DNA of 64,000 nt. Source: Duganella sp. 1224 (lineage in GTDB: Bacteria > Pseudomonadota > Gammaproteobacteria > Burkholderiales > Burkholderiaceae_D). Numbering within the stretch: the stretch's first letter is position 1; every line of letters begins with the position of its first letter. The notes below the pieces were generated by a model. It did not search any database and was not told the DNA's origin. It saw only the letters and a program-made list of their open reading frames with translations. The stretch lies in assembly GCF_013408245.1 (NCBI RefSeq), contig NZ_JACBYS010000001.1, positions 1,798,001 to 1,862,000 on the forward strand, in the 5' to 3' direction. This document shows positions 12,744 to 17,436 of the stretch, piece after piece. The position numbers and the translations under genes are program-made.

Positions 12744-13106
12744 ATGTCCCAACAACTGGTACTGGACGGCCGCCTCGAATCGGCCAAGACCACCGCGTGG
12801 TGGCTGTACGTCATCCACGCGGTCAGCTTCGTCTTTTCGCTGGGCGCGTTCTCCATCATCCCACTGATCCTCAATTATCTGCAGCGGCCCAGCACCGAGG
12901 GCACCTTCGTGCACAGCCACCACACCTGGATGATCCGTTCGTTCTGGTGGTACGTGGTGTGGGTGGTGGTGGGCGCCGCCTTCTTCATGACCTTCATCGG
13001 CATCCCGGTGGCATGGCTGATCTGGATCGGCGCCTGGCTATGGAAGGCCTACCGCCTGATCGTCGGCATCAGCCGCATCAACCGGAACGAGCCGGCGCCA
13101 ATCTAA
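12744..13106 (+). CDS. Small membrane protein, DUF4870-like
   Basis: This 120-residue protein has three likely membrane segments (about residues 20-45, 68-88 and 89-108) and is rich in Trp and His between them. It resembles the DUF4870 family of small membrane proteins of unknown function. A strong AAGGAG precedes the ATG. The gene ends inside the 3' end of the convergent UdgX-fusion gene, with a 29-base overlap. No function can be assigned. Confidence 0.75.
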   Translation: MSQQLVLDGRLESAKTTAWWLYVIHAVSFVFSLGAFSIIPLILNYLQRPSTEGTFVHSHHTWMIRSFWWYVVWVVVGAAFFMTFIGIPVAWLIWIGAWLWKAYRLIVGISRINRNEPAPI

Positions 13107-14523
13107 GCGCCTGCCGCAGGCCGGCGACGATGACGTCGTAGGCCTGCTTGCGGCTTTCCTCATCGCGCGCGCGCAGCACAAACGACGGGTGGTAGACCGC
13201 CACCACCCAGCGTCCCTCGTGCTGGAACGGCGCCTCCATCACGGCGCTCATGGTGGCGCCGCCGTCGCGCAGCACCGACTTCAGCGCGGTCGCCCCCAGC
13301 GCCACCACCACCTCCGGCCTGACCTGCTGCAGCTCCTCCTCCAGCCACACGTGACAGGCCGCCACCTCGCGCTGGGCCGGCGTCTTGTGCAGGCGGCGCT
13401 TGCCGCGCAGCTCCCACTTGAAATGCTTGACGGCGTTGGTCAGGTAGACCGCGTCGCGCGCCACGCCGGCTTCGGCCAGCGCCCGGTCCAGCACCGCGCC
13501 GGCCGGGCCGACAAACGGCAGGCCTTGCAGATCCTCCTGGTCGCCCGGCTGTTCGCCCACCAGCATGATGCGCGCCTGGCGCGGGCCGACGCCCGGCACG
13601 GCCTGGGTGGCGTTGCGCCACAGCTCGCAGCGGCGGCACTGGTCGAGCGTGTCCGGCGCGTCGCGCCGCGGCTGCGCGCGTTCCGGCGTCACCGCGATGG
13701 TGGTGGCGCCGCCGCGCCGGCCCACGGTGCCGGTCTGGCCGGTACGGCGTTCGCCGGTGGCGGCGCCACTGATCATGGCCGGCACGATCGCCCCCTCCGG
13801 CAGATTTTTCCAGAAGCGCGAAGGAATATGGCTGCGCAGCAGATCGGCGTTCAGGCGCGCCGGATTGAAGATGCTGCGGTAGTAGGTGAGCCACAACGAT
13901 TCGCCGGCGTCGTCGATGTCGGCCGCGCCGCGCATCAGGGCCGGCGCGTTGTGCAGGTGTTCACCGTCCCACAGCACGGTGGCGGTGGGCGTGGCGATCA
14001 TCCAGGTGGCGTTACCCATGCGGCGGGCGAAATGGCGCGCCACCTGCGGCAGCACCTCATGCGTTGGCTCGAACCAGGCGACGAAGCGTGGCGCGCCGTC
14101 TTCCTCCTTGCGTTCGCGGAATCGTACATAGGCATGCATGTCGTGCTCCTCGCGGCGGACCGCTTTGACCATCGCGTACAGGCGCGCGCCATCGACGTCC
14201 GCCGCCGACATCACATCGCGCTCGCCGCGCTGCCAGCGCCACAGCACCTTGTACAGAAAGGCCCAGCGGTCGGCGGCGCTGAAGCACGCCGCGCTGGCCA
14301 GCATCTCCATCAACTCGCGCGGCACGCGCAGCGCCGACCCGGCCGCGGCCTCGGCCCCGTGCCCGTGCCAGTGCCCGGCTGCGCCGTCGGCGCCGAACGA
14401 AAACAGATCGCCATCCGCCTCGCTGGCCGCCCACTCAACGGACGCCGGCGGCACCGCGCGCGCGACCAGATCCCGCGCCGCCGCCCGCCACTCATCAAAC
14501 GACCGCGCCACCTTGCGTATCAT
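13078..14523 (-). CDS. DUF4130 - UdgX fusion: uracil-DNA-binding glycosylase-type repair protein
   Basis: The 481-residue protein has two parts. Residues 1 to ~255 match the DUF4130/TIGR03915 family, the usual partner of the radical SAM protein encoded next door. Residues ~280-481 are a UdgX-type family 4 uracil-DNA glycosylase domain, with GEQPGDQED at 323-331, the UdgX-specific KRRLH loop at 375-379 (His379), and VYHPSFVLR. UdgX of mycobacteria uses the loop histidine to bind covalently to the abasic sugar after uracil removal. The early cysteines (QCRRCELW) should bind the iron-sulfur cluster. The start ATG overlaps the stop of the radical SAM gene (ATGA), so the two are translationally coupled. 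A longer ORF exists upstream but would run inside that gene. Confidence 0.92.
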   Translation of the reverse strand: MIRKVARSFDEWRAAARDLVARAVPPASVEWAASEADGDLFSFGADGAAGHWHGHGAEAAAGSALRVPRELMEMLASAACFSAADRWAFLYKVLWRWQRGERDVMSAADVDGARLYAMVKAVRREEHDMHAYVRFRERKEEDGAPRFVAWFEPTHEVLPQVARHFARRMGNATWMIATPTATVLWDGEHLHNAPALMRGAADIDDAGESLWLTYYRSIFNPARLNADLLRSHIPSRFWKNLPEGAIVPAMISGAATGERRTGQTGTVGRRGGATTIAVTPERAQPRRDAPDTLDQCRRCELWRNATQAVPGVGPRQARIMLVGEQPGDQEDLQGLPFVGPAGAVLDRALAEAGVARDAVYLTNAVKHFKWELRGKRRLHKTPAQREVAACHVWLEEELQQVRPEVVVALGATALKSVLRDGGATMSAVMEAPFQHEGRWVVAVYHPSFVLRARDEESRKQAYDVIVAGLRQALRLAPARSG

Positions 14524-15752
14524 GCCGCCTGCAACTCCGGCCATAAATTCATCTGTTGCGGCGCATCCGCCATCGCCCGCCGCAGATGCTCGGACGGGCT
14601 GGTATCGCGCGCCGGAAAATAATCCGCCGTAATGATGAACGGCGCGATCTTCTTCATACTGCAGCGCAAACGCGACAGGTCGGCATACCGCACCTGCCGC
14701 AAGCGGCGCAACTCGACGATGCGCTGCGCATTGCGCAATCCTATGCCAGGCACGCGCGCAATCATGTGCGGTTCCGCACGATTCAGGTCCAAAGGAAAAT
14801 GCTCGCGGTGCGCCAGCGCCCACGCCAGCTTGGGATCGATATCCAGCGCCAGGTTGCCACCACTGGACGGCAACAGCTCCTGCGCCTGAAAGCCATAGCC
14901 ACGCATCAGGAAATCCGCCTGGTACAACCGGTGCTCGCGCAGCATCGGCGGCGGCGCCAGCGGCACGCTCTTGGGGCTTTGCGGAATCGGGCTAAAGGCC
15001 GAATAGTAGACACGCTTGAGCTTATAGCTGCCGTACAGCGTCTGCGCGGTGGACAGGATCTGCTGATCGTCGCTGCCGTCGGCGCCAACGATCATCTGCG
15101 TGCTTTGCCCGGCCGGCGCGAAGCCTGGCGCCTTCGGCTCCTCCGCCTTCTCATCCAGCTTGCGGCGGATCGCCCCCATGGCCAGCTTGATGGTGTGAAC
15201 GCTCTTCTCCGGCGCCAGTTTCTGCACGCTGTCCTGCGTTGGCAGCTCGATATTGACGCTCAGCCGGTCCGCATAACGCCCCGCCGCCGCGATCAGCGCC
15301 GGATCGGCATCGGGGATCGTCTTCAGATGGATATAGCCGCGGAACTGGTGCACCTCGCGCAGCTCGCGCGCCACCTGCACCAGCTGCTCCATGGTGTAAT
15401 CCGCCGACTGGATGATGCCCGAACTGAGAAACAGCCCGTCGATGTAATTGCGGAGATAAAAATCGGTTGTCAGCCGCACCACCTCCGCCACCGCAAAGCG
15501 CGCGCGCGGCACGTTCGACGAGCGTCGGTTGACGCAATACTGGCAATCGTACAGGCAGTAATTGGTCAGCAGGACCTTCAGCAGCGAGACGCAGCGGCCA
15601 TCCGGCGTGTAGCTGTGGCAGATGCCCATGCCGGTGGTGGCGCCAAAACCGTCCTTGCCGATCGAATTGCGCTTCGGCGCACCGCTGCTGGCGCACGAGG
15701 CGTCGTATTTGGCCGCATCGGCCAGGATTTCCAGCTTGTCCCTGATCTCCAT
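14520..15752 (-). CDS. Putative DNA modification/repair radical SAM protein (TIGR03916 type)
   Basis: This 410-residue radical SAM enzyme carries the cluster motif CX3CX2C at Cys66, Cys70 and Cys73 (NYCLYDCQYC). A helix-hairpin-helix DNA-binding segment (ARVPGIGLRNAQRIVELRRL) lies near the C-terminus at about 325-345. The family is predicted to act in DNA modification or repair; its substrate is not established. Its stop overlaps the start of the DUF4130-UdgX gene, its conserved partner. A near-consensus LexA site lies 17 bases before the start codon, so it should be induced by DNA damage. Confidence 0.93.
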   Translation of the reverse strand: MEIRDKLEILADAAKYDASCASSGAPKRNSIGKDGFGATTGMGICHSYTPDGRCVSLLKVLLTNYCLYDCQYCVNRRSSNVPRARFAVAEVVRLTTDFYLRNYIDGLFLSSGIIQSADYTMEQLVQVARELREVHQFRGYIHLKTIPDADPALIAAAGRYADRLSVNIELPTQDSVQKLAPEKSVHTIKLAMGAIRRKLDEKAEEPKAPGFAPAGQSTQMIVGADGSDDQQILSTAQTLYGSYKLKRVYYSAFSPIPQSPKSVPLAPPPMLREHRLYQADFLMRGYGFQAQELLPSSGGNLALDIDPKLAWALAHREHFPLDLNRAEPHMIARVPGIGLRNAQRIVELRRLRQVRYADLSRLRCSMKKIAPFIITADYFPARDTSPSEHLRRAMADAPQQMNLWPELQAA

Positions 15753-15768
15753 CGCATTTTCCGATACA

Positions 15769-15784
15769 CTGTGTTTATATACAG
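15769..15784 (-). promoter_or_regulatory. LexA-binding SOS box
   Basis: On the minus strand this reads CTGTATATAAACACAG, an exact CTG-N10-CAG with the AT-rich centre of the E. coli/betaproteobacterial SOS box, flanked by TA. It is 17 bases upstream of the radical SAM start codon and is well placed to repress that operon. Confidence 0.88.
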
Positions 15785-15810: not shown

Positions 15811-17436
15811 CTATTTTGTCATGGACAACTGCCGTCGCTGTTGCGCGGGCGCCGTCAGCCTGCGCAACGCGCCCTCCTCGTGCTGGTTCAACTGGAACAC
15901 GCTGACCAGCTGCGCCAGCGACGTCGCCTGCTCCTGCATGCTCTGCGCCGCCGTCGCCGCCTGCCCCACCAGCTCCGCGTTCTGCTGCGTCACCGTGTCC
16001 ATTTGCGCGATGGCCTGGTTGACCTGCTCGATGCCCAGGCTTTGCTCGCGCCCGGCGTTGGTGATCTCGGAAATCAGATCGGTCACGCGCTGCACGCTGG
16101 CCACCACGCGCTCCATCGTGCTGCCGGCTTCCGCCACCAGCTTGCTGCCCTCCTCCACCTGGCTGACCGAATTGCCGATCAACTCCTTGATCTCGCGCGC
16201 CGCGCCGGCCGAACGCTGCGCCAGATTGCGCACCTCGGACGCCACCACCGCGAAGCCGCGTCCCTGCTCGCCGGCGCGCGCCGCCTCCACCGCCGCGTTC
16301 AGCGCCAGGATATTGGTCTGGAACGCGATACCGTCGATGACGGCGATGATGTCGCCGATCTTTCGCGACGAGGCATTGATCGACTCCATCGTGTGCACCA
16401 CCCGGCCCACCACTTCGCTGCCCGCCTGCGCCACGTCGGAGGCCGAACCGGCCAGCTGGTTGGCCTGCGCCGCCGCCTCGGAATTCTGCCGCACCGTGGA
16501 CGTCAGCTCCTCCATCGACGCCGCCGTCTCCTCCAGCGAACTGGCTTGCTGCTCGGTGCGCGACGACAGATCCAGGTTGCCGGCCGCGATCTGCCCCGAG
16601 GCCGAGGCGATCACGTGGGTCGAGCCACGGACGTCGGTGACGATCTTGGCCAGATTGTCGCGCATGGTCTTCATCGCAAACAGCAGGCTGTGGCTGTCGC
16701 CGGCGCGGGTTTCCACCTGCGCCGACAGGTCGCCGGCCGCGATGCGGTTGACGATGTCCACCGCGTAGGCCGGCTCGCCGCCCAGACTGCGCATCAGCCG
16801 GCGCGTGATGATGAACGCGGCGGCCGCGCCCAGCGCCACGCTGACCAGCATCAGCGTGATGATCAGCGTGCGCGATGACGCGTAGCGCTTCACGCCCTCG
16901 GCCGCCGCCGCCTTGCCGCCATCGCTGTAGAAGGTGACCAGCTTGTCGACCTGGGCGCGCATGGAGACGATCAGCTTGTTGGATTCGCCGCGGATCAGCT
17001 TCTTGGCGTTGTCGGCGTCGCCAGCGCGCACGGCGGCGCGGATCTTCGCGTCCTCCTCCATGTAGCGTGCCCATTGCTCGGTGAATTGCGCATACATGGC
17101 TTTTTCCTCCACCGTTTCCAGTAACACCTGGTATTCATCCTGCATCTTTTTCAGGTCGTCCAGGTCGGTCGCGATGACTTTATCGTATTTATCCAGCTCG
17201 GTGGGCTCGCTGGAAATAATATATTGCAATTCCCGTGTGCGAATTCGCGCTATTTGGGATTTAATATCCTCAATAATTCTCACACTTGGTAACCAACGCG
17301 ATGATAAGCGTGTCGATATTTCATTTACTTGCGATAATTCCATTATTGAGAATATGCCCACAATCGCTGTCATGGACAAAACCGCGCAGAATGCGGCCGC
17401 CAGCTTGGTTGCAAGAGGCAATTCAGTTAATCGCAT
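15811..17436 (-). CDS. Methyl-accepting chemotaxis protein
   Basis: The 541-residue receptor signals to CheA. It has an N-terminal membrane helix (about 10-30), a four-helix-bundle periplasmic sensor (about 35-190), a second membrane helix (about 190-212), a HAMP domain and a long cytoplasmic signalling domain. The conserved hairpin tip reads [20 protein letters not shown]. No C-terminal NWETF-type methyltransferase-docking peptide is present. The first ~100 codons are clearly richer in A and T than the rest, as is the adjacent intergenic DNA. The gene is divergent from the dioxygenase gene. The ligand is unknown. Confidence 0.95.

Follow-up and report, generated by a model that had tools for sequence, protein, structure and literature searches.

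The 64,000 nucleotide (nt) stretch of Duganella sp. 1224 analyzed here (the window; contig NZ_JACBYS010000001.1, positions 1,798,001 to 1,862,000) carries on its minus strand a two-gene operon, a radical SAM gene followed by a gene for a DUF4130-UdgX fusion, with a LexA box in front of it. Sequence comparison strongly supports SOS (LexA) control of this radical SAM/DUF4130 operon because an exact LexA-type box precedes the radical SAM gene in 77 of 85 proteobacterial genomes, each from a different species, and in 38 of 41 genera. SOS control and DUF4130 go along with the radical enzyme and UdgX does not; the enzyme itself ends in a probable clamp-docking peptide. We give an even chance to the reading as a whole, in which the operon would encode an SOS-induced, clamp-tethered radical SAM/DUF4130 module that processes DNA lesions, with UdgX as an accessory.

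Conservation of the LexA box

Radical SAM matches were found in 35 of 116 genomes in a family search (34 over the cut-off) and in 66 of 299 genomes in a phylum search (53 over the cut-off). Loci, genomes and families carry our own labels, which begin with L, G and f. When positions -250 to +20 of the radical SAM start were scanned, an exact LexA-type box was present at 154 of 165 loci, 119 of the CTGT type and 35 of the GAAC/GTTC type, compared to 5 and 15 of 4340 equal-size tiles elsewhere in the same loci. One gene remnant (L101, genome G115) was left out before counting, and the farthest box counted as exact was at -167 (L035). The 154 of 165 loci are not independent because species recur among them (L103-L182 partly duplicate species already in the G set, as with L079 and L136); the 85-genome set holds one genome per species, and these species are still related. 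Seven of the 11 loci with no exact box had one at a single mismatch (L079, L091, L099, L100 and, by eye, L108, L136 and L180).

The sequence of the box changed with lineage. All exact boxes in families f1, f2, f5, f11 and f16 were CTGT-N8-ACAG (42 of 48 genomes), and families f31, f37, f38, f41, f44, f48 and f54 carried a GAAC-N7-GAAC or GTTC-N7-GTTC direct repeat in 35 of 35 genomes; the single genomes of f8 and f13 had no exact box. This direct repeat is the alphaproteobacterial LexA motif (PMC8565304). Motif and named relatives point to Alphaproteobacteria for the direct-repeat families and to beta- and gammaproteobacteria for the CTGT-type families. As the box tracks the gene while its own sequence shifts by lineage, shared DNA ancestry alone does not explain its presence. 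In L188 (MT835514.1) two near-matches to GAAC-N4-GTTC, the Clostridium/Bacillus-type LexA box, were seen by eye upstream of the radical SAM gene (GAACAAATGTGC, AAACAAATGTTC).

An earlier note, made from the DNA sequence, had described a near-consensus LexA box 17 bases before a TIGR03916-type radical SAM gene that overlaps, at its stop, with the start of a gene for a DUF4130-UdgX fusion. It had proposed LexA control, and absence of the box in close relatives keeping the gene pair was half of what it would have taken as a refutation. The box turned out to be an exact CTGT-N8-ACAG match and does lie before the gene, at a measured distance of 16 nt from the ATG at 15752 and not 17. Profile matches bore out both protein identities, with TIGR03915 and TIGR03914 falling on a single protein, the stop/start overlap was confirmed, and the counts above uphold the conservation of the box and support control of the operon by LexA.

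Within the window the box was the only exact site. Allowing up to one mismatch gave 5 sites against a shuffle mean of 16, below expectation, so the window alone provides no measure of significance for a single box and the multi-genome survey does. The preceding open reading frame (ORF), likewise on the minus strand, ends at 15811 and the box sits in the 58-nt gap. No full consensus sigma-70 pair passed the promoter scan upstream of the radical SAM gene. The closest relatives among named genomes were Duganella and Janthinobacterium.

Elsewhere in the same genome, exact CTGT-N8-ACAG occurred at 30 places compared to 8 for the pattern read backwards. Fifteen of these sites were fetched: two precede lexA (TIGR00498, over cut-off), one precedes imuA (NF033429, over cut-off) and one precedes a gene for a DnaE2-like protein matching the error-prone DNA polymerase PRK05672, a match obtained from a 300-residue piece for which the curated cut-off is out of reach. 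At C1:299457-299472 (L005) a perfect box is separated by 16 nt from the start of a radical SAM gene of the PA0069 family (over cut-off), which gives this genome a second, different radical SAM protein with likely SOS control. At C1:2207244-2207259 (L009) a LexA-like box lies 26 nt upstream of a large ORF that gave no NCBIfam match and may resemble FAN1-type nucleases, and two CTGT-N8-ACAG sites whose starts are 19 nt apart lie upstream of a 93-aa ORF at C1:2517932-2517966 (L010, L011). Several other fetched sites, lying before ORFs that are unrelated or doubtful, could have arisen by chance.

Table of features of the radical SAM/DUF4130-UdgX operon, with positions in the window
Feature	Position	Strand	Basis
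LexA (SOS) box CTGTATATAAACACAG, perfect CTGT-N8-ACAG	15769-15784	-	pattern scan
Extended -10-like TGATATACT	overlaps LexA box	-	by eye
Radical SAM protein P0001, 410 aa, TIGR03916	14520-15752	-	551 bits, cut-off 343.5
N-terminal stretch with Cys20, Cys45-His46 and Cys54	15591-15695	-	all invariant in 46 of 46 aligned
CxxxCxxC radical SAM cluster motif, residues 66-73, CLYDCQYC	15534-15557	-	all three Cys kept in each of 46 aligned sequences
Helix-hairpin-helix, residues 321-350	14703-14792	-	Pfam HHH_3, 21.8 bits, below cut-off 27
Sliding-clamp-binding-like motif QMNLW, residues 400-404	14541-14555	-	pattern scan and alignment
ATGA stop/start overlap, translational coupling	14520-14523	-	sequence
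DUF4130-UdgX fusion P0002, 481 aa	13078-14523	-	profile matches
TIGR03915/DUF4130 domain, residues 7-243	13795-14505	-	201 bits, cut-off 112.25
UdgX domain TIGR03914, residues 280-471	13111-13686	-	246 bits

The radical SAM protein and its C-terminal peptide

The general clamp-binding consensus is QLxLF, and a QLSLF/QMNLW-like peptide was found at the C-terminus of 157 of 169 radical SAM proteins against a shuffle mean of 2.9 of 169. The same pattern matched 3 of 1327 tiles elsewhere in those proteins. The Gemmatirosa protein (L186, 36% identity, no second gene found) was left out before this count. A second pattern for the motif matched 154 of 169 proteins, the one-per-species set carried the motif in 74 of 84, and Gln400 was invariant in all 46 aligned sequences, three other phyla included. 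Several of the proteins that missed the pattern read by eye as variants, such as QLSLGF and QASLF. The model confidence at residues 399-410 was low, as expected for a flexible end, and sequence and model are consistent with the exposed tail of a beta-clamp client. These results suggest that the radical SAM protein is probably recruited to the beta sliding clamp by its tail. No report of a clamp-binding motif on a radical SAM protein of this kind was found in the literature searched, and we present the motif as new here.

An AlphaFold2 model of the protein had a mean predicted local distance difference test score (pLDDT) of 84.7, with residues 21-31 and 34-43 under 50. Searching known folds with this model returned lipoyl synthase as the best match (Z 18.1, 227 residues, 3.3 A), then HydE, also at a Z of about 18, with biotin synthase lower. 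The Pfam Radical_SAM match to the window protein was slightly under its cut-off (29.2 vs 29.5), and a sequence search of solved structures gave only weak partial matches to the radical SAM family (best E 0.0046). By its modeled fold and CxxxCxxC motif the window protein is a radical SAM protein. Some of lipoyl synthase, HydE and biotin synthase carry a second cluster, so Cys20, Cys45-His46 and Cys54 could form a second metal or iron-sulfur (Fe-S) site. The helix-hairpin-helix of a Fusobacterium relative scored over the HHH_3 cut-off at 29.3 bits. The gene remnant at L101 (G115) spans 61 profile positions, and the same genus keeps the gene in G023, G058 and G081.

DUF4130, UdgX and the neighboring genes

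All 80 genomes searched that have the radical SAM gene also had DUF4130 above its cut-off, in each case downstream and on the same strand; this set leaves out G115, G046, G071, G114, G078 and G098 of 86. The two profile matches lay within 720 nt of each other in 78 of the 80. The two exceptions were L066 (G343) and L069 (G355), where the DUF4130 gene is 2.8-3.1 kb downstream on the same strand. A draw of 114 genomes of the class gave a TIGR03915 match only in G000 and was uninformative. Four standalone DUF4130 proteins searched against Pfam at E up to 10 gave DUF4130 and otherwise weak matches only.

Of the 172 loci scanned, 142 had a DUF4130-UdgX fusion as the second gene, 24 had DUF4130 only, 1 had the two as separate genes, and in 5 no second gene was found. 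The five were L031 and L146 (contig edge), the G343 and G355 loci and L186, and a few of the 24 DUF4130-only loci were also cut by the locus end. UdgX was over the cut-off in 67 of the 80 genomes. The remaining 13 (six with no match and seven with weak matches) had an exact box in nine cases and a one-mismatch box in three more. Single loci of Bacteroidota, Clostridia, Fusobacteriota and Acinetobacter, searched as loci only, held the pair with no UdgX beside it, and the control genome Bacteroides ihuae matched TIGR03915 and TIGR03916 and gave no TIGR03914 match. An exact LexA box was absent, in about 3 kb, from all five standalone UdgX genes, which came from two families.

The UdgX half of the window protein carries CRRC, GEQPG (323-327), TNAV, KRRLH (375-379, with the cross-linking His379) and HPSFVLR (445-451). 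GEQPG (motif A), the KRRxH R-loop and the HPS motif B make up the UdgX motif set, and motif B has S or A where the fusion has F (PMC10359453). With these motifs the fusion may cross-link covalently to abasic DNA. Its UdgX half matched Mycobacterium smegmatis UdgX in fold (Z 27.1, 191 residues, 2.3 A) and in sequence (E 2.6e-74).

The canonical loop with the cross-linking His is kept in 135 of 142 fusions, and five more have, by eye, a loop insertion that keeps RxH. Among Pseudomonas UdgX halves (L094, L171-L174, L176, L182) five have the loop insertion, two of these with identical sequence (L094 and L172), and L171 and L182 have lost the cross-linking His. Pseudomonas loci L175 and L180 hold the pair with no UdgX beside it. 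In Azospirillum brasilense (L189) and two further genomes (L083, L085) the fusions lack the first two CRRC cysteines and keep GEQPG and the cross-linking loop. UdgX is best seen as an add-on to the SOS-controlled radical SAM/DUF4130 unit because the pair and its box persist where UdgX is missing, Pseudomonas UdgX decays and standalone UdgX genes have no box.

Twenty wide loci (about 7 kb per side, one cut by its contig) kept the radical SAM gene in 20 of 20 and the second gene in 19 of 20 by BLAST. ABC ATPases occurred in six at scattered distances and on either strand. The other families listed in at least three of these loci were kin-specific sets of three or shadow ORFs on other frames; the set in L203-L205 presumably includes carB- and greA-like ORFs. 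A wider operon was considered and rejected, as among the families present in at least three wide loci no third one keeps steady company with the pair.

A phage origin appears unlikely: a viral-contig search with P0001 confirmed no match and a search with the alignment gave two contigs. Ten records in a phage collection had a match. One of them, L187 (CAKLQH020000003.1), is filed as an Acinetobacter phage and looks chromosomal, carrying glyS and glyQ as well as the pair; by eye an AAACGA...TCGTTT inverted repeat precedes the pair there. PHROGs gave weak matches only. Membership of an anti-phage defence system was likewise rejected, with no PADLOC model matching either protein at E 0.01.

Proposed function, alternatives and related systems

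We propose that LexA represses the operon and that DNA damage would lead to its expression alongside the translesion machinery of ImuA and DnaE2. In favor of this, 33 of the 34 genomes of the family set with the radical SAM gene had ImuA above its cut-off, compared to 50 of 82 others (Fisher p 2.8e-5, kinship uncorrected). The radical SAM protein would bind DNA through its helix-hairpin-helix domain, and its C-terminal QxxLW/F peptide would hold it on the beta sliding clamp. In complex with DUF4130, its constant partner, it could use a 5'-deoxyadenosyl radical to process a base lesion that blocks replication, or else to modify a base, at stalled forks or behind them. UdgX, carried on the partner in most of the proteobacterial genomes examined, may covalently capture, and so cover, uracil and abasic sites in the same gaps. 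A more specific version, which we hold only tentatively, is a so far unrecognized kind of replisome-tethered radical SAM DNA repair enzyme that is SOS-induced and docked to the beta clamp by its QLSLF tail, with DUF4130 as a constant subunit, a possible second Fe-S cluster (Cys20/Cys45/Cys54), radical reversal of a fork-blocking lesion and UdgX as a secondary abasic-site shield. The clamp-tethered reading is the most interesting of those left.

Several observations weigh against this proposal. Eight of 85 genomes had no exact box, L016, L017, L046 and L067 lacked any box of the CTGT, GAAC or GTTC type with one mismatch allowed, and the non-proteobacterial loci gave no convincing exact box of the motifs scanned; the sole exact match there, GGA-N5-TCC in L188, is likely chance. 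The clamp-like pattern was missed by 12 of 169 proteins (10 of 84 one-per-species), and the motif is drawn from sequence and a low-confidence tail with pLDDT under 50 at 399-410. The helix-hairpin-helix Pfam matches of the window protein were below cut-off (22.5 and 21.8 vs 27), and uracil-DNA glycosylase (UDG) chains filled the fold-search lists for the fusion, so the fold of DUF4130 stayed hidden. The association with ImuA may reflect kinship and genome size. The boxes, the operon, the domains, the conserved motifs and the constant DUF4130 with its occasional UdgX can be read directly from the sequences; induction, clamp binding, complex formation, radical chemistry on DNA and DNA as the substrate are inferred.

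The earlier note had linked all three activities in one pathway, with radical chemistry acting on lesions captured by UdgX. If UdgX captured uracil or abasic lesions and the radical SAM/DUF4130 pair then processed or released the adduct, the gene overlap and fusion in the Duganella genome, the frequency of the fusion among the loci (142 of 172) and its widely kept cross-linking loop (canonical in 135 of 142, RxH kept in five more) would be expected. However, this claim found no support in the distribution of UdgX: 13 of 80 genomes have the pair with no UdgX over cut-off, nine of them with an exact box, the single loci of three other phyla have no UdgX beside the pair, and B. ihuae has both members of the pair and not UdgX. 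In Pseudomonas the pair is kept at two loci with a degenerate UdgX and at others with none next to it, and standalone UdgX had an exact box in none of five cases. Capture followed by radical repair is therefore unlikely as the conserved core function, and we assign the single pathway a small probability.

The pair might directly reverse a pyrimidine photoproduct or a comparable lesion, in the manner of spore photoproduct lyase. This would fit a CxxxCxxC radical SAM protein with a helix-hairpin-helix and the published description of associated SplB-like radical SAM photolyases as possible modifiers of thymines (PMC3765255), but lipoyl synthase, HydE and biotin synthase head the fold lists. Spore photoproduct lyase was not among the 50 fold matches listed for the model, an absence that excludes nothing. 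We regard photoproduct reversal as rather doubtful. The pair could instead act on the mutagenesis side, modifying template bases or tRNA/nucleotides and so altering translesion synthesis, not repairing DNA. The clamp-like motif, the co-occurrence with ImuA and the description of DUF4130 as a predicted mutagenesis-related enzyme (PMC3765255) would agree with such a role, but the ImuA co-occurrence is uncorrected for kinship and no imu-like family was among the neighbors recurring in at least three of the 20 loci within about 7 kb. This role seems quite improbable to us. With the clamp-tethered module as our preferred reading, the question moves from what UdgX needs to which lesion a fork-tethered radical enzyme targets, and a likely docking tag together with an optional uracil trap calls for other tests of the system.

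In outline, SOS control of pairs like this one is already known and was largely anticipated in print, which the earlier note did not mention, nor did it mention the clamp-like motif; added here are a wider survey of boxes, a ranking of the parts into core and accessory, and the clamp motif. We take COG4277 to be TIGR03916. The predicted SOS network of Bacteroidetes includes a COG1573-COG4277 operon, with Verrucomicrobia and Caulobacter cited as well (PMC8565304). Like the present operon it places a UDG gene and a second gene under LexA, whereas the UDG in the window is UdgX fused to DUF4130 behind a CTGT-N8-ACAG box, and the portion of that paper available mentions neither a DUF4130 partner nor a clamp motif. 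LexA control was also predicted for CAC3343-CAC3344 of Clostridium acetobutylicum (PMC3828012, which in its available part does not mention UdgX); judging from the clostridial locus analyzed here, CAC3344 would be DUF4130. SOS control of splB was predicted in alpha- and betaproteobacteria (PMC3323433), which may be either this gene or the PA0069-type gene. Such a radical SAM gene was upregulated in Acinetobacter on desiccation at 8% relative humidity (PMC13130816) and in a Fusobacterium co-culture, the latter with no bearing on damage (PMC9848294). The literature searched gave no reaction assigned to the radical SAM/DUF4130 pair.

The physiological role of UdgX itself has been described as largely unknown (PMC10359453). 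M. smegmatis UdgX (PDB 6L5B, 6AJO and others) shares 49% identity over 191 residues (6L5B) and the GEQPG, KRRxH and HPS motifs with the window protein, but its PDB chains are about 210 residues long and the present UdgX forms the C-terminal half of a fusion encoded by an SOS operon. For the clamp peptide the closest comparison is ImuB, the SOS translesion hub, in which changing QLPLWG abolishes clamp-dependent foci (PMC10421592). Like ImuB, the radical SAM protein is SOS-linked and has a QxxLW/F peptide; the comparison is one of working alike only, as ImuB is a relative of Y-family polymerases and the present protein is a radical SAM enzyme of another family.

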